From contig NC_134678.1 of the NCBI RefSeq assembly GCF_024713945.1, positions 2,728,001 to 2,792,000 on the forward strand: DNA of 64,000 nt. The letters run 5' to 3'. Below, one piece after another: positions 4,047 to 59,261 of the stretch. Both the position numbers and the translations under genes were made by a program. This DNA comes from Dermatophagoides farinae. Its lineage: Eukaryota > Arthropoda > Arachnida > Sarcoptiformes > Pyroglyphidae. The notes below the pieces were generated by a model. It made no database searches and was not told where the DNA came from. It saw nothing but the letters and a program-made list of their open reading frames with translations. Every line of letters begins with the position of its first letter. Position 1 is the stretch's first letter.

Positions 4047-7000
4047 ATGGCATCTTTTTATAAAAGTACGATGGCCGCAAATAGTGCTATCAATTCGAAT
4101 CAAAATGACATCCACAACGGTGATATTGGACATATCCGTGAAATACTTTTGAAAAATTTCATGTGTCATAAACATTTCCATTTGCAATTTGGACCTAGAA
4201 TCAATTTCATTGTCGGACAAAATGGAAGTAAGTATTTGTTTGTTTTTCACTTGAATTAAGAATAAATCCACATTTTGTTTAACAGGTGGAAAATCGGCAA
4301 TACTAATAGGAATTGTACTAGGTCTTGGTGGCCGTGCAAGTTGTACGAATCGTGGTTCTGGCCTTTCACTGTTCATTAAAAATGGTGAATCGCGAGCCCA
4401 AATAACATTGAAAATAGCCAACTTTATTGATGGAAAATCAACAGATGAAAGCTATAAATATGATCGATACGGTAAAACTATTATTGTTGAACGTACAATC
4501 AGCATAAATGGTACAAGTTCCTATAAATTGAAATCAGAATCTGGAAAGATTATTTCAGAAAAGAAAGAAGAATTGGATAATATTCTGTCCCATTTTTGCA
4601 TTTTTATCGATAATCCAATTTGTGTTCTTACACAAGAAATTTCAAAAAATTTCCTCAATTCCAAAAATGCTTCGGACAAATTTAAATTTTTCATCAAAGC
4701 CACCCAGATTGAAGAAACGAAACGATTGTATGATAGTTGTAAAGAAGATTATGAATATTCTAAAAAAAAGATTGCGGTAATTATTCTCTTTTTTTCACTT
4801 GTTGACAGTTTAATATTAATTTTACTTTTACCAGGAAAAAGACGAATTGCTTAAATCTTACAACGAAAAATTAGAAAAATATCGTAAAGAAGTTAACACA
4901 ATCGAAAAACTACGAAACAATGTGAATCTCATGAAACAATTAAATAATGAATTACATTGGGCTTGTATTAATGAATACTATAAAGAATTGAATGAAAATA
5001 TTGCAAAATTGGATGATAATAAAAAGAATATAGAAAAATATGATAACGAAAGGAACGATATTCAACAAGAAATAAATGAAATTAATCAACAAAAAGCCGA
5101 ACTAGATGAACGTTTGCATAATTTTACTTCAATGGTCAAACAAGCACAAAATGATTCTCATATGGCAAAAAAGGAATCAGAGGATATGCGATCTCAATTG
5201 ATTAAAAAAGAATCGGAAATGAATGTTGTTAAAAAAGAGTTGAGTAAATGTCGTTCAGAAATCAATGGTATTCGTAAAAGGATCGATGGAATCGAAACGA
5301 ACAGCCAAGAATGTCAACATTTAAATATCGAGGATCTTATCAAAAAACTTGATGAAGAAATGACAAGTAAAAAATCCAAAAATCAATCATTAAAATTAAA
5401 ATTGATTGAATTGCAACAACTCAAGGATCAACAGGTTAATGAAAAAATTCATATCGAAGAAGAGGTTCGAAAAAATCAAGCTCAAATGAAAGTTAATCAA
5501 AGTGAGATTCTTCGTTTAAGAAGTGTTGAAAACAATCGTTTGGGACGTTATGGTCCCAAATATACTGAATTGAATAAACAAATTGATTTATTACATAAAA
5601 ACAAAAAATTTAAACACAAACCATTCGGACCTATTGGTGAATATATCCGATTAAACGACAATAAAGCTGCATATGCTGTTGAAATCTTTCTGAAAAGGAT
5701 GCTTTTTGCCTATGTTGTCGATAATGATGCTGATGCTTGTATCCTAAAAGATCTCGTTAGTCGATTATTCAGAGGGGATTTACTGAGTAAACCCTCAATA
5801 ATTATAAGAAAATTTGTTCCATTACATAATGTATCCAGATCTCAAGCAATTTCACCTAATTATAAAAATTTTCTTCAATTATTGAATATCAAACGTGAAG
5901 ATGATCCGGTTGCCAATTGCCTTATCGATCATCAGAAAGTCGAACAAGTTCTTTATATTCCTAATTACCGCGAAGCACAACATATTTTGTCTCGACGAGA
6001 ATTGGTACCGAACAACTGTATCCGCTGCTATACATCCGATGGGGATTTAATGTATCCATCGACAAATCATAGTGATTACAAATCATATCCTAACAGAAAT
6101 CAGAATAAGTTTGCAAGAATTTTAGTCGAAAATCATACGCAAACTATTGAAAATTGTCGTAAACAAATTGATTTTCTCCAAGAAAAAATTGAAAATTTAT
6201 GTCATCAACTTCGTGAACAAAATCGTTTGATAGAGGAGAATAAAAAGGAAATCGCAATGATTTCACATGAAATTAGTCAATGCGAAATTGAACAACATGA
6301 TTTGGAAAGTCAACGTTCTGAATTGGAGGTAAATTATCTTTCATTATTGATCGTGTTTTTCAATTGATAACAATTTATATATTTTTTTTTTTTTTGATTT
6401 AGGCAAAAGCTGCCATCAAACCGGTAGAGGCTGTAGCCTTAAAAGATGAGGTTTTCAAACTAGAAGAGGAACAAATTGAACTGAAAAATCAACTCCAGAA
6501 ACTTGCGATTGTACGTGATGACCTTAAAAATAAATATAACGAGTTATTGAAAAAATGTGATGACAAACAACAAGAATATGAAAATCTTCGAGAATCTCGT
6601 GATCCCATTACCGAAAAAATTGAAAAATTAAATGATAAACAAAGAGTTCTTATGAATAGATCAGAAAAGAAAACTAATGATTACGAAAAATTATTGGATT
6701 CGAAATCAAAGCTGGAAAATGAAATCAAAGTTCATCAGCAAAAACTTCATGAAGAGGAACAATTGGCATTAGAAGAGACCGAAACAAGAATTGAAACAAC
6801 AAGAAGTTCGGCAGAAATTGGAAAAGAAATTAGTGATATAGAAAAATATCTTGAAATAAATAAACACATAATGGATCCAAAAGTTCAAGAACAAACATTT
6901 GAATCCTTTTACAAACTACAACAATCGACTAGCAATGTCAAGATTGAATTGGATGCTTTAAATACATATTTTTCCAAATTGGAAACATCAAGCAAATCTC

Positions 7001-8992: not shown

Positions 8993-11900
8993 ATGATATT
9001 GAAACTTTGTAGTCGTTCTGTTGTTTTGAAAACATTGATACTTTCAAGTTCAAAAAGGCTTTATCATGGATCAAGAATCGACCAAAAAGTAATCGATTAT
9101 TTATCCAAATTTCCAGATACATATGAACAAAAAGAATGTGAAAAATTTTGGTCATCCATATGGGAACAGCGTGAATTATTTGTCATTAAGGATACGGAGC
9201 CAAAATTTCGTCTTTTATTACCACCACCAAACATCACTGGTTCATTGCATTTAGGTAAATTATTCAAAACGTTATGATTGATGCCTTAATTTCATTTTCC
9301 TTTCACAGGTCATTCATTGACTGTTGCAATTCAGGATGCTTTATGTCGATATCATCGAATGAATGATAAAATTGTCAAGTGGTATGGTGGTACCGATCAT
9401 GCAGGAATTGCCACTCAGATTATCATCGAAAAAATCCTATGGGCCAAATATGCTAAAACTAAGCAGGATATCTCTCGAGAAGAATTCGGTGCTATCATTG
9501 AGAAGTGGAAAAAAGAACGAATTGATGAGATTGAAAGGCAGCTTAAATCGCTAGGTGTTTCGATTGATTTTCAATCCAATTATTTTACGTTATCACCAGA
9601 AATGTCTAGAAATGTAAATGAAGCTTTTATTGAATTATTTAATCGTGGAATGATATATCGAGCATCTTATATGGTCAATTGGTCATACTATCTGCAATCA
9701 ACATTGTCGGATATCGAAATTGAACATAAATTCATATCTGGTCCAACAGAATATAAAGTACCTGGCTGTAATGAATCTTTTCAGCTCGGTGTTATACATT
9801 ATTTCAAATATCCACTAGAAAATATTGATTCAAACGATTTTGTTACGATAGCAACTACAAGACTTGAATCAATTATGGGCGATGTAGCCCTTGCTGTTCA
9901 TCCCGATGATACACGTTATTCACATCTTATAGGAAAATTTGCATTTAATCCATTTACCAATGAAAAAATGCCAATTATAGCTGAAGAAAGTGTAAAACCT
10001 GATTTTGGCACCGGTGTACTTAAATTAACTCCGGCACATAGTTTTGTTGATCATGAAATTGCCCTTCGACATAATCTACCATCAAAAACCATTTTCAATG
10101 ATCAAGGTTTTATTGACTGTGAATATAAACCATTGAACAATGTACATCGATACTCAGCTAAAGAGTTAGTCAAACAAGAACTTGAAAAACGTAATCTCTA
10201 TTGTGGCTTGAAAGAACATGGACATTGGCTGCCGATTTGTTCTCGAAGTGGTGACATAATTGAATCGCGCATTGTGCCACAATGGTTTCTGAAAACAGAT
10301 GAGGCTCGATATGCTGCCGAATTTGTAGCTAATCGTGACAATCTTTCTGAATCATCCAAAGAAGTTTGGAAACAAATAAGTAAAAATTTAGATGAACATA
10401 GTCGAAACATGGCCATCATTCCATCAGGATATCGAAACACATGGAAAGATTGGTTTAGCCGCTATAAAGATTGGTGCATTTCTCGTCAGATTTATTGGGG
10501 ACATCAAATACCTGCATATGAAGTTATACTTGATTCGAAGCCAACAAATATTTGGATAGCTGCAATGAGCGAAGAACAAGCTTTGAATGTTGCTTGTGAG
10601 AAACATGGTTTCAAAAAAGAAGAAATCGAAATACGTCGTGATCAAGATGTCCTAGACACTTGGTTCTCATCGGCATTATTGCCACTTGCCGTAACCGGGT
10701 GGTTTCAATCGAATTCTTTTCAAGACCTTCCACTTTCATTAATGGAAACTGGTCATGATATTATTTTCTTCTGGGTAGCAAGAATGACTTTAATTTCATT
10801 AATGTTATCTGGACGCATACCATTCGATAAAGTTTTATTGCATGGAATGATATGTGATGAAAAAGGCAAAAAAATGTCCAAATCAAGGGCCAATGTTGTT
10901 GATCCTCTTCATCTAATCGAAGGAGCTTCATTTGATCAGATTTTACAACAAAATAAAGATTATCTCGATTCTGGTTTAATAACACGCGAAAAGTTTACAC
11001 AAGTTATGAATAGATTGATTAAAACTTTACCGAAGGGTATTCCCATATGTGGTGCAGACATATTACGATTATCTCTGCTTCAATCAAGATTTAAGGAACA
11101 AAATGTTAAATTTGATCTAAAAAATGCAATCAAAAAGCGTGTGTTTGCCAATAAAATGCATCAAACAATCCGTTTTATTTTGATCAATTTAACGAATGAA
11201 TTCAAAGAAACACCAACGTTTTTGGTCAATGATACACTTTCGAAAGTGGATAAATGGATTCTATGTAAATTAGCAGATTTGGTAAATCACTGTAGATTCA
11301 CATTTGATTCTTACGATCTTCATCATTCGGCCAAACAAATCGAACAATTCTGGATTGATAATTTATGTGATGTATATTTGGAAAGTATCAAAAAAGACAT
11401 TGTCGGCAAAACGGAATCTTATGAAAAATCCATGAATGTTATGCTATACGTAATTCGACAAGCGCTCAAATTGATTCATCCATTCATGCCATTCATAACG
11501 GAAAATTTATATCAACAATTGGAATATCGCCTCACTTCAGATTATTCATATCGCAGCATCTTGGAATCGGAATATCCAAAAATACAAGACGATCCAGTTC
11601 TTGTTCATTTTGATCGTTCCATCGACAAAGATATGGAAAAAGTCATTGAAATTACGAAAAAAATTCGTTGGTTCAAACAAAATTTCCATATTCCAAAAGA
11701 TAGTGCAATAGAAAAGATACGTATTGCTTCATTATATGAAAATTTATCCGATTTTCAATCATTGATCGAATCTTTTATCAGAATCGATATCTGCCCAATT
11801 GAATTCGTAAATCTTTATGATATTTATAAATATGATGATGATGATTGTTATTGTGTTAAAGTCGATATCGATAGCAAAATTCGATCCATAAGAAGTGATG

Positions 11901-12142
11901 ATAGTTCATCCACTACCGATTCAGACGAAGAAAAAGAAAATTTAACTGCAAACAATTCGCTCAAATGGAATGAAATCTACATCTTATTTTCGATCAATCG
12001 TGAACAATTGAAATTAAAATTAACAGAAAAATTCAAAAATAGTCAAACAAACAAATGTGACCAATTGATGGCCGATATGGATTTATTTCATTTTGAAAAT
12101 TTTACAAAAAATTATAAAAAATCGACAAAAATTATTAGCTAA
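8993..12142 (+). CDS. VARS2: Valyl-tRNA synthetase, mitochondrial
   Basis: A class I aminoacyl-tRNA synthetase that charges tRNA-Val with valine. Two exons, 8993-9254 and 9309-12142, encode about 1031 aa. The first 25 or so residues are basic, hydroxylated and free of acids (SSSKRLYHG), as in a mitochondrial targeting peptide. The HIGH-box region PPPNITGSLHLGH is split by the 54-bp intron. The CP1 editing domain follows (TTRLESIMGD, then TPAHSFVDHE), then LPICSRSGDIIE, DTWFSSALLPL and the KMSKS loop (KKMSKSRANVVDP), then the anticodon-binding domain. Phrases such as LPICSRSGD and PAHS match mitochondrial more than cytosolic ValRS. An acidic, serine-rich insert (SDDSSSTTDSDEE) lies near the C terminus. 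The TTRPET editing motif reads TTRLES here. The coding end is 13 bp from the convergent NOC4L stop. Confidence 0.93.
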
Positions 12143-12155
12143 ATAATAATAAACA

Positions 12156-13790
12156 TTATAAATCATAGTAAAGGCTACAATCAAGATCATATGAAAATTT
12201 TTTTTGATCATTCAACGAAGTTTTTGTTTTGTCTATCACATCATCCATCGAAGTTTCAAGAATATCTTCCATATTCCATTCATAACGAGGCAATTCACTG
12301 CTAATCTGTTTGGAAAGTAAAACTATTTCAGGATGATAATGTGATTGAAGTAGATTCAATTCCCACATATAGCTATTCAATGCTTGAGTTTTTTCTGGAT
12401 CTTGTTCTTGATCAAGAAATGGATCTTGTTCTGGTTCAATTTGTTTATAGTCTAACATTCGTTTGATCATTGGATGTCTGATGAATAAATTTCCTATGAA
12501 TGGTAATAAAATCAATATTGTGTCGGGGCTTGAAATGATTGTTAAACGGGCAAATTTTTTTGCAAACGAAGCGACAATTGTGGCTGATATATGCGTAGAT
12601 GTGAGAAATAAATCACACCAAAATAGAAATCGTGGTCGATGTTTTACATAAGTAATTGCAGGTTCTAGAAGACTGTAAAGTTGGCCATAAAAATTTGGAT
12701 ATTCTAAATTGCATTTATGAATTAATGTATAAAGTGGGCTTAGACTTAGAATTGAGATGATTCCTCCAGTTTGAAAAGAATTTATTAGAAAATCGGCCAA
12801 TAATAATGGATTTTCGAAATGTCTTATGGCATATTTGTCAAGATAGAGAAGAGATTTTTTAAACACCTGTGGTGGTAATTGAAAAGTGAAATACTTTATC
12901 CACAATGAAGAATAGATTTCGGCATCACGTGAATAATTGAATTTAAATTTGCGTGTAGGTAACTGTATCCATTTAGCTATATGGTTACCACTATCATCAG
13001 AATCATCAATGCGATGAAGCTCACAAAGACGAATCAATGTTTTACGGTCGTTATTAGATTTGTTAACTTTCCTAAATTCTGATTGTAAACTTTTGGGCAA
13101 CAAATCTTCAGGTGTAATCAATCGAATAGGAGAAAGCATATCGATAATATTGAGCATTAGATTTTGTTTATCATTCCCTTTATTCTCATCAATAATCTTA
13201 TGCAATATCGTCATGGTGAAATGAATAACATCATCGTATTGGTATTTCGAATAGAAGGCAATCAATTCTTGATTATAAATTAGTTCAGAGATTAGAGATC
13301 GAACAATTTTCTCCAAAAGTACAACAGGAAAGCTTATTTCATCATTATTGGTTGCGTAACGGTAGGGGAATTTTCCTTCTTCTTCAACAAATTTCATCAG
13401 CAATTCTAAACACAATTGTCTCAGTTTCAATGAATAGTTGGATTCTTTGTTTTCCAAAATTCGAATAAAAAGACTGATGGTTGATTCGTAAAGAGTAATA
13501 AGCCAAGATTTGAATTTATTGATTTTGCTATATTGATCTGTATCATCATCCTTAAGCAAGACCATTTCACGAGAATCAATATAATTGGTCCATATCTTTG
13601 ACAAACATCGTATCAATGATTCAGCGTAAAGATTACTCGCCTGAATCTCATCCAAATTTGAGAGAATATCAATTAGATCAATGATTCGATTGACATTTTT
13701 TCGATCTTGAAGTATATCTGATGTAATTTTGTTGAATTCCTGTAACGGAATTAAATTTAAAGATTTAGATTCATTCATTTTCAAATCCAT
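12156..13790 (-). CDS. NOC4L: Nucleolar complex protein 4 homologue (NOC4L)
   Basis: A single-exon gene of 544 aa. NOC4 works with NOP14 in maturation and export of the small ribosomal subunit in the nucleolus. The C-terminal half is the CBF/Mak21-type helical repeat domain, with family-typical phrases: LIHKCNLEYPNFYGQLYSLL, then RPRFLFWCDLFLTSTH, then VASFAKKFARL and LPFIGNLFIRHP. The tail keeps DPF followed by ALNSYMWELNLLQSHYHPE, which is highly characteristic. The N-terminal half is helical and diverged. The start is the first ATG of the frame (MDLKMNE). It converges with VARS2 and is divergent from prefoldin 3 (262 bp between starts). Confidence 0.92.
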   Translation of the reverse strand: MDLKMNESKSLNLIPLQEFNKITSDILQDRKNVNRIIDLIDILSNLDEIQASNLYAESLIRCLSKIWTNYIDSREMVLLKDDDTDQYSKINKFKSWLITLYESTISLFIRILENKESNYSLKLRQLCLELLMKFVEEEGKFPYRYATNNDEISFPVVLLEKIVRSLISELIYNQELIAFYSKYQYDDVIHFTMTILHKIIDENKGNDKQNLMLNIIDMLSPIRLITPEDLLPKSLQSEFRKVNKSNNDRKTLIRLCELHRIDDSDDSGNHIAKWIQLPTRKFKFNYSRDAEIYSSLWIKYFTFQLPPQVFKKSLLYLDKYAIRHFENPLLLADFLINSFQTGGIISILSLSPLYTLIHKCNLEYPNFYGQLYSLLEPAITYVKHRPRFLFWCDLFLTSTHISATIVASFAKKFARLTIISSPDTILILLPFIGNLFIRHPMIKRMLDYKQIEPEQDPFLDQEQDPEKTQALNSYMWELNLLQSHYHPEIVLLSKQISSELPRYEWNMEDILETSMDDVIDKTKTSLNDQKKFSYDLDCSLYYDL

Positions 13791-37700: not shown

Positions 37701-38844
37701 ATGGCTGAGTATAAATGTTTTTGTTTGCAGAACGGACAACCACCAGCTGATCTGATTTGTTTTTTTTTTGTCCTATTCACAATAAACAATAGGAAAAAAT
37801 ACAATAAACAAGAACCAAAGGAAAAAAAATAATCATTTACAGAGAATGTGTATGTCCGTTTTACAAAGAATGTTTGATTTCCAATTATAATTGACGCTTC
37901 ATCGGTTCTTTTCATGATGTTGTACCAGTGTAAAAAAAAATCATCATTACACTGATGATGGGTGATAATAAAAATCCTAAATAATTATTGGTTAATAGTC
38001 TAGTATTCGAGGCGAAAGTTTTTCATCGTTCATCATAAAGTTACAGATTTTTTTTTTTGTACAATCGATTGGACACAAGCAACTGTAGAAAACAAAAAAA
38101 TTAAACTAAATCACATCAATCATTGATGGTCAATCAATTGTGAAAAATACTGATAGATCATGATGTATATTTTACTATACTGTACAGTGTACACTAAACG
38201 TTATTTTAATGATATATATTTTTTTTCCAAAGAATGATATTTGTTGAATAAAATATCCAACAATCATCGTCAATATGATAGAATAATCTGAATTGTTAAT
38301 GAAATATAATATGAACTGATGATTTGGATTGAATTTATCATCGATCGATGAACAGTGGAAAAAAAAGAGAAAAAAAATTGTTTTGATAAGAAAAGAAAAT
38401 AAAACTTACCAAAGCTATGGCCAATAGATGTAATATACTAGCTGTACAGCAAATAACATCGGCTGATGTCCATATATCACATAATAATGTACCTAATGAC
38501 CATTGTTGACGAATTTCACTAACGGCACCCAATGGCATTACAAAACAGGCAACCATTAAATCTGCAACAGCTAATGATAATACTAAATAATTAGCTGTAG
38601 TACGTAAATTACGTTCCATTATAATGGCAGCAATCACAAATACGTTTCCAATAATAGTCAAACAAGTCAATATGCCTAAAATTAGGCTTACGGATAAAAT
38701 ATAAACAATGGTATTGTCTTCAAAATTAACATCAATTTTGACAGCGGCAACAGCATTAATCGAAGTATTGTTGATGTTATTTGTTGTAGTCATCATAGTA
38801 GTAACAATAACGGGCATAATGTTTGTTTGATTTAGCTTCTCCAT
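34715..38844 (-). CDS. Serotonin receptor, 5-HT1-like GPCR
   Basis: A class A biogenic-amine receptor at the cell surface; the relatives couple to Gi and lower cAMP. Seven exons: 38410-38844, 37197-37466, 36678-36765, 36348-36506, 35581-36267, 34834-34987 and 34715-34775, giving about 617 aa. N-terminal Asn-glycosylation sites precede TM1 (GNVFVIAAI). TM2 has LAVADLMVACFVMPLGA; TM3 has the amine-binding Asp in SADVICCTASI, then DRYWAVTYVDYIHKRT. ECL2 has GWKDPYFNVRVEQ and Cys in RCLISQD. TM5 is TFYGPLIFILLLYWKIYQVARKR. ICL3 is very long (about 310 residues, Asn/His/Ser-rich). TM6 is KRERKAAKILAIITGIFVMCWLPFF; TM7 has LNPIIYTIF and a short tail SPDFRNGFRRILCGKKRRQR. GWKDP, SQDxxYQVFAT and KRERKAA match fly 5-HT1A/1B best, so tyramine, octopamine and dopamine receptors are less likely. 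Confidence 0.9.
37474..37502. repeat. (AAT)n microsatellite in receptor intron 1
   Basis: About nine AAT units directly upstream (transcript sense) of the DRYW exon of the serotonin receptor, followed by TTATTATTATT that can pair with it. Confidence 0.85.
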
Positions 38845-39403: not shown

Positions 39404-39592
<189 letters not shown>

Positions 39593-58269: not shown

Positions 58270-58278
58270 ATGTTGAGC
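58270..58278. repeat. Left 9-bp target-site duplication
   Basis: ATGTTGAGC lies immediately outside the left inverted arm and is repeated exactly at 59253-59261 on the other side of the element. Confidence 0.85.
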
Positions 58279-58742
58279 GGTTGTGTCACAAATTGTCGAA
58301 AATAAAAATGTCGAATGCAAAATGGTCGAAAATATTTGATCGAAAATAATAAAGTCGAAACGACAAAAACGTCGAACAGACAAAAATGTCGAAAATAAAA
58401 AAGTCGAAGATTGAAATGTCGAAAATGGCTTGAGCCCTTATCCCTTAAAATTATCACTAACGAAAAAGACTCAAATATTATTTTTTCATTTCAATTCTGG
58501 ATAATCACACATTAAGATGATAAAATTTTATTTTTATTCGAACTATTTGGATTCATATTATTATCAATTCACTTTATATTTTCATTCAAATTTGTTTGTG
58601 ATTATTATTTGATTGTTTATCGATTTACTACAGCATCAAAATTATCTTTAAGTAATTATTGTATTGAAGAGTGGGTGATAAAAGGAGCATTCAATGTTAT
58701 GAACGGTCTTCACAGGGCCAAAAATGTTTATTTTTTTCTAGT

Positions 58743-58767
58743 TTAGGTTAGGTTAGGTTAGGTTAGG
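58743..58767 (+). repeat. (TTAGG)5 telomere-type repeat inside the element
   Basis: Five perfect TTAGG units in the middle of the foldback element. TTAGG is the ancestral arthropod telomere repeat. Its position inside a transposon between inverted arms shows it is interstitial and not a chromosome end. Confidence 0.95.
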
Positions 58768-58792
58768 TGGTCTCGGTTCATTAGATTAATAC

Positions 58793-58815
58793 AAACCTCA
58801 CCTTCGGTGAGGTTT
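58793..58815. other. Perfect 10-bp stem hairpin at the element centre
   Basis: AAACCTCACC and GGTGAGGTTT pair exactly around a TTC loop, 25 bp after the TTAGG block and close to the midpoint of the foldback element (about 58765). In single-stranded form it would nest inside the large outer foldback. Confidence 0.85.
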
Positions 58816-58934
58816 GGATAAAACTATTGTATTGACAAACAATCTAGAATAGAGATCAAAGTCTAAAATACTATAAATCGGTTCATCGATGTTTTACACT
58901 TTTGTCTCAGAAAATTTCCTTGTCTTTGACAATA

Positions 58935-59010
58935 ATAAGTAAAGTCAACACTGACGATATCGGCATTGAATAAAGTAAAGTTAACACTGACGTTCTCTGC
59001 ATTAAATAAG
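58935..59010 (+). repeat. Diverged direct repeat in the element interior
   Basis: Two imperfect copies of about 36 bp, each containing an AA(C/T)ACTGACG core followed by (T/G)GCATTGAATAAAG or TGCATTAAATAAG. They sit between the telomere-type block and the right arm. Directly readable, moderate divergence. Confidence 0.6.
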
Positions 59011-59252
59011 GGAAAAGTCGCCACTGTGTATCCAGAATTAAAATGAAAAAATAATATTTGAGTCTTTTTCGTTAGTGATAATTTTAAGGGATAAGGGCTC
59101 AAGCCATTTCGACATTTCAATTTTCGACTTTTTTATTTTCGACATTTTTGTCTGTTCGACATTTTTGTCATTTCGACTTTATTATTTTCGATCAAATATT
59201 TTCGACCATTTTGTATTCGACATTTTTATTTTCGACAATTTGTGACAGAACC

Positions 59253-59261
59253 ATGTTGAGC
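59253..59261. repeat. Right 9-bp target-site duplication
   Basis: Second copy of ATGTTGAGC, directly abutting the right inverted arm. Confidence 0.85.

Follow-up and report, generated by a model that had tools for sequence, protein, structure and literature searches.

A small family of recently mobile, hairpin-forming foldback transposons in the mite Dermatophagoides farinae

Within the window, the 64,000-nucleotide stretch of Dermatophagoides farinae DNA that was analysed here (C2:2728001-2792000), a segment of 974 bp at 58279-59252 begins and ends with long arms that are nearly reverse complements of each other, and the question is whether this structure is a transposon and, if so, of what kind, how recently it moved and by means of which enzyme. 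A preliminary description had proposed a non-autonomous transposon of the foldback type in what seemed to be a mite, and the arm coordinates given there, together with about seven mostly transitional differences between the arms, units of 14–17 bp and a flanking 9-bp duplication, prove to be correct to the base. The foldback element is composed as follows.

58270..58278, no strand: left target-site duplication, ATGTTGAGC, identical to 59253-59261
58279..58503, plus strand: left arm, 225 nt, with the terminus GGTTGTGTCACAAATTG, which is common to the nine near-full copies; 97% complementary to the right arm
58290..58426, plus strand: TCGA-headed units of the left arm, 14–17 bp apart (tandem repeat call and unit spacing)
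58504..59028, no strand: loop between the arms, with no open reading frame of 120 aa or more; different or replaced in other elements
58739..58768, plus strand: (TTAGG)5 array in the loop (tandem repeat call)
58779..58829, plus strand: short loop hairpin (inverted repeat I18)
58937..59009, plus strand: loop repeat of 36 bp, present twice in direct orientation and related to arrays in the arms of subfamily B
59029..59252, minus strand: right arm, 224 nt, with the terminus GGTTCTGTCACAAATTG (read inwards), complementary to the left arm
59107..59241, minus strand: TCGA-headed units of the right arm (tandem repeat call)
59253..59261, no strand: right target-site duplication, ATGTTGAGC

The left arm of the window copy contains nine TCGA starts with spacings of 15, 15, 14, 15, 17, 17, 15 and 15, a pattern that is mirrored in the right arm. 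Compared with each other, the arms show seven differences, comprising six substitutions, five of which are transitions, and a single 1-base gap. When folded as single-stranded DNA the element reaches -285.8 kcal/mol, whereas 20 shuffles average -90.9 (sd 5.7), which gives z = -34, and an open reading frame scan of the window found none of 120 aa or more overlapping it. In Drosophila FB elements short tandem repeats make up the long inverted arms, and the target duplications are of 9 bp. The mite element, whose long inverted arms are built partly of short tandem units and thereby place it in the foldback (FB-like) class, resembles FB and FB-NOF, as likened by description, in arm design and in its 9-bp duplications, but differs from FB-NOF in that no NOF-like coding copy was found in the mite.

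The assembly (62,435,336 bases in 22 contigs) was searched with the whole element as a DNA query, which gave 117 matches and 34 candidates, all 34 of which were scored, and the copy counts are to be taken as lower bounds. There are at least nine near-full copies, including that in the window, which measure 886–974 bp; they stop at the same bases, the start and the end being identical in all nine, and every one is flanked by an exact duplication, 9 bp long in six cases and 8 bp in three. Two further elements, L031 and L033, have the ends of the near-full copies and altered loops. The loop of L031 contains an extra stretch of about 370 bp, with the rest partly the same as in the near-full copies, and L033:1086-2756 (C5:2853285-2854955) has the family arms, GGTTC at both ends and a loop of about 1.1 kb that is for the most part unrelated. 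Subfamily B is formed by four elements of 1454–2481 bp (L037–L040), whose ends are related to those of the near-full copies. The members of the family differ in their inner part.

The termini of the 15 two-ended elements, from the two subfamilies, read GGTT(C/G)TGTCACAA or GGT(T/G)CTATAACAA and lie in inverted orientation. A search with the terminus pattern, allowing up to two mismatches, returned 41 matches (31 exact, three with one mismatch and seven with two), against two for a reversed control pattern, and the best 34 of the 41 resolve into 15 pairs, the widest of 2481 bp, and four single ends. One terminus is present at four places (L032 and L034–L036), and one fragment (L041) is without any.

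Exact duplications, found at different sites, flank 14 of the 15 two-ended elements, eleven of them 9 bp long and three 8 bp. L033, the sole exception, has none; it is possibly a recombination product, and would be compatible with the suggestion in the preliminary description that such arms can promote rearrangements. When the left flank of one element was paired with the right flank of another, a duplication of at least 8 bp appeared in 0 of 210 pairs. The duplications of L005, L007, L008, L037 and L039 are of low complexity and individually count as weaker evidence, and the pooled duplications are 72% A+T, the same as the window, with no site motif evident. That the copies arose by segmental duplication or in the course of assembly, with no transposition at all, would accord with their small number and with a two-ended element such as L033 that lacks a duplication. 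This is highly improbable, since the homology ends at fixed bases and 14 of the 15 carry their own exact 8–9 bp duplications against none in the control, and the different flanks and duplications at the 14 sites likewise speak against an assembly artefact.

Repeated copies with common ends and, in 14 of 15 cases, target duplications likewise place the family in the foldback (FB-like) class, and the repeat-built arms, the 8–9 bp duplications and the recent movement support the original reading as a foldback transposon of a mite that is apparently non-autonomous. No published foldback family of Dermatophagoides was found in the open PMC literature searched. The D. farinae element is recently mobile, non-coding and hairpin-forming, and represents a new, small family of an already known foldback type.

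Movement must have been recent because three copies on different contigs (L004 on C4, L005 on C3 and L006 on C2) are identical over 928 bp, each with a different duplication. The window copy differs from these three by one substitution and 46 gap columns, and differences between copies lie mostly in repeat units, namely 17 bp in the arm of L003, the 36-bp loop repeat and one TTAGG. The preliminary description had also argued for recent movement, from the high identity of the arms; the conclusion stands through the identity between copies, but the argument from the arms was wrong. Of the seven arm differences of the window copy, two separate left from right in every one of the nine copies and two are mixed; the other three are found in each copy whose two arms both retain the bases (the left arms of L008 and L009 are shortened, and L003 is short of 17 bases). 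As most of the arm differences are common to the copies, arm divergence is largely older than the burst, and arm identity is not the clock; its use as an age estimate was ruled out by these common differences.

With a probability of roughly three in four, the family can be described as a non-autonomous foldback DNA transposon that is moved in trans, most likely by a MULE enzyme. A transposase supplied in trans would recognise the ends, perhaps helped by the repeated arm units, and insertion at staggered cuts would be repaired to give the 8–9 bp duplications, whilst the number of repeat units would have been changed by slippage. The enzyme would most likely be a member of the Mutator (MULE) superfamily. 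Target duplications of MULEs are of 8–11 bp (PMC6446971), a range that takes in the eleven 9-bp and three 8-bp duplications of the mite family, and the long arms also fit. Because no transposase frame was found in any family copy, and no longer element with the family ends was found in the assembly using the terminus pattern with up to two mismatches (more diverged ends would escape), the superfamily call is drawn from the duplication length and the anatomy. The Mutator membership proposed earlier agrees with the length of the duplications, but no coding copy was found to bear it out.

The same foldback transposon might instead be moved by an enzyme from a different superfamily (hAT, P/Galileo-like, Merlin or Rehavkus), an alternative that we judge unlikely. 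Duplications made by hAT and P elements are of 8 bp or fewer (8 bp for hAT), whereas 11 of the 14 in the mite family are of 9 bp; the remaining three, at 8 bp, would suit such an enzyme, as would the presence of five hAT-domain matches in the assembly. All five lie far from the family termini, however, and with three of 14 duplications of 8 bp and no hAT domain near the family ends the family does not classify as hAT. The Merlin domain PF12762 (IS1595-type) gave 0 matches in the assembly, although a diverged one could escape such a search. The foldback shape is known from other superfamilies, Galileo being P-like (PMC3573991), and Rehavkus likewise makes 9-bp duplications (PMC6446971).

The preliminary description had proposed to look for a longer relative with the same termini and a MULE transposase. 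None was found with the whole-element query or with the terminus pattern at up to two mismatches, and the only MULE-type domain found is a fragment elsewhere. The Pfam MULE search of the assembly gave this one match, on C3, at 26.5 bits against a cut-off of 27.6 (27.7 for the frame alone). The locus contains a FLYWCH domain and a partial MULE domain (profile positions 30–94 of 99), and another of its frames encodes a LEM-3-like GIY-YIG domain; a second copy of the 5' part of the locus, 98% identical, lies about 3.4 kb upstream. The Tm1-A and Phantom transposases are described as combining FLYWCH with MULE (PMC3169594), and the Phantom or FLYWCH-MULE type (PMC6446971, PMC3169594) is like the mite family in duplication length and in that a FLYWCH and partial MULE locus is present in the mite genome, although this locus is without family ends in the stretch examined. 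Three weak candidates for family end pairs with duplications around the fragment were dropped. Other FLYWCH frames lie on C1 and C8, and the one on C1 was set aside as a possible partner, since the 383 aa of it that were read are of low complexity with nothing MULE-like by eye.

Two short stretches tie the C3 locus to foldback loops, one of 41 bp (88%) in L037 and one of 79 bp (85%) in L043. Since similar sequence to the 41-bp stretch is found at three further places, the link is a lead and not a proof. A segment of 34–41 bp around TTCAAAGAGAACGT(T/A)ACG recurs at 88–97% in L037:2219-2259, L078, L083, L084 and L052:699-739 and 4139-4179, and at two of its unrelated places it sits inside a longer match of 70–73%. 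At about 4004-6400 of L052 (C3:1392000-1401999) short (CCTAA)n-like tracts separate the FLYWCH, partial MULE and GIY-YIG frames, and in two cases an AATAAA-like signal and an A run immediately precede the tract, in the manner of polyadenylated pieces joined to telomere-like repeats.

On our best reading, the mite family appears closest in design to FB, Tetris and the nematode Tm1. Tm1, a Mutator/Foldback family of Meloidogyne, is described as having composite inverted arms with a variable number of units of about 14 bp, duplications of 8–10 bp (mostly 9), termini that are unequal at the two ends, mostly non-coding members and, in one class, hairpin-bearing loops, in all of which it is like the mite family (PMC3169594). 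It is unlike it in that one M. incognita member encodes FLYWCH and MULE domains, no coding member having been found in the mite, and in its arm unit CGATTCAGTATCGC and motifs CGGTTAA / CCTACCC, which differ from the window element when compared by eye (PMC3169594). The end difference of mite subfamily A is one base, unlike that of Tm1. Tetris of Drosophila virilis, likened here by description, is also a foldback element reported with only non-coding copies, 8–10 bp duplications, tandem repeats inside the arms, variable rearranged forms and an autonomous partner that was not found, and it differs in arm units of about 220 bp and in its fly host (PMC4079207). Tetris was assigned to Mutator from its 8–10 bp duplications (PMC4079207).

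In the loops, TTAGG units number five in the window copy and four in each of the other eight near-full copies, an array that might be a telomere remnant, and one unit of the 36-bp loop repeat is absent from L004–L007 and L009. At the centre of the loop hairpin, six of the nine near-full copies have CACCTTCGGTG and the other three its reverse complement, a small inversion for which template switching at a hairpin could be the source; it is recorded at window 58787-58813 and at L002, L003 and L008. Three Rfam matches to the hairpin all fell far under the gathering scores and were read as chance, so that it was not taken for a known RNA.

In subfamily B the arms contain arrays at 38- and 76-bp offsets, and the 36-bp loop repeat of the window matches arrays in both arms of L037–L040, in both orientations, so that a loop sequence of one subfamily forms part of the arms in the other. 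The loops of L038–L040 are alike, with 97.7–99.7% ungapped identity and 120–327 gap columns, and the duplications of the three elements differ; a common loop with different duplications indicates that the loop cargo moved together with the arms. An RVT_2 domain is found in L038. The loop of L039 contains three pieces, which abut within 0–2 bp.

716-1033: a 318-bp dispersed repeat
1032-1447: an internal copia reverse-transcriptase segment, 83% to C6:5009742 and 82% to C8:1433458
1448-1586: a satellite-like unit, with arrays on C5 and C4

The loop pieces may have been exchanged by template switching in gap repair or replication and then moved as cargo, and the description of FB4 as carrying other DNA after template switching (PMC8277862) fits the loops of the mite family. 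For the loops only, ordinary nested insertion of mobile elements with later deletion, and no template switching, is a possible rival, though with the odds somewhat against it. Among the best 40 of 188 candidates scored, matches to the 318-bp piece at 81–89% identity stop at 1033 in no fewer than 36 other places, and at least 21 of these matches start at 716; since the piece recurs with common ends it may be a complete small element, making that part of the loop perhaps a nested insertion. Against this as an account of the whole loop, the pieces that follow are an internal segment of a copia reverse transcriptase and a satellite-like unit, all abutting within the same narrow limits; the joints were inspected for duplications by eye. 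Large arrays whose unit contains CTAACACGACCAGTTCAGAATCGAGAAAATGACAAGTCC in both orientations occupy 1841-2518 and 4081-6386 of L081 (C5:2844500-2852200), where they adjoin a copy of the 318-bp repeat and look like a source of some parts of the subfamily B loop.

One module of the window loop (query 448-613) has an 86% match in L043 and, over part of its length, an 83% match in L046, both of which have inverted arms (93% and 90%) whose units are unrelated to those of the window element. These foldback-like loci, L043:483-1664 and L046:877-1312, have arm units of the CGAAAATAGC or GAAAATAGCC type together with the window loop module. Target duplications were looked for at both and none was found, and a whole-genome search with L043 (89 matches; best 40 of 44 candidates) gave only partial matches besides L043 itself; with no duplications and no second full copy of L043, the two were not established as mobile families of their own.

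A bolder and rather doubtful proposal would be that mite foldback elements with unrelated arms use one recombining pool of loop modules (the (TTAGG)n-plus-hairpin module, copia pieces and satellite-like units), that template switching shuffles these modules between elements, that a transposase now lost or nearly lost then carried them along as cargo, and that the elements could be natural sources of siRNAs. Dust mites are reported to have lost piRNAs and expanded siRNAs, with a reliance on Dicer-made siRNAs (PMC5805368), which is why self-complementary elements could serve as such sources, and an siRNA defence fed by foldback hairpins is directly testable in these animals.

In the published annotation of D. 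farinae, DNA transposons amount to 736 elements, or 0.09% of the genome, and the word MULE is absent from the main text of that genome paper (PMC11074847). The family, of interest for its very recent copies, missing transposase and composite loops, adds a recently active foldback transposon to a compact and medically important mite genome. Its identical copies offer a good target for finding the transposase behind them, and its loops are a record of sequence exchange within animal transposons.

Elsewhere in the window, one frame matches Der f 21; in its alignment with 5ynx, 111 of 113 residues are identical, the exceptions being the first two. A (GA)92 tract with 98% matches lies at 39404-39587, not far from a frame (38338-38844) that has a rhodopsin-type receptor domain, and long frames at 9317-12142 and 12156-13790 contain class I tRNA synthetase (including the leucyl editing domain) and CBF/Mak21 domains.
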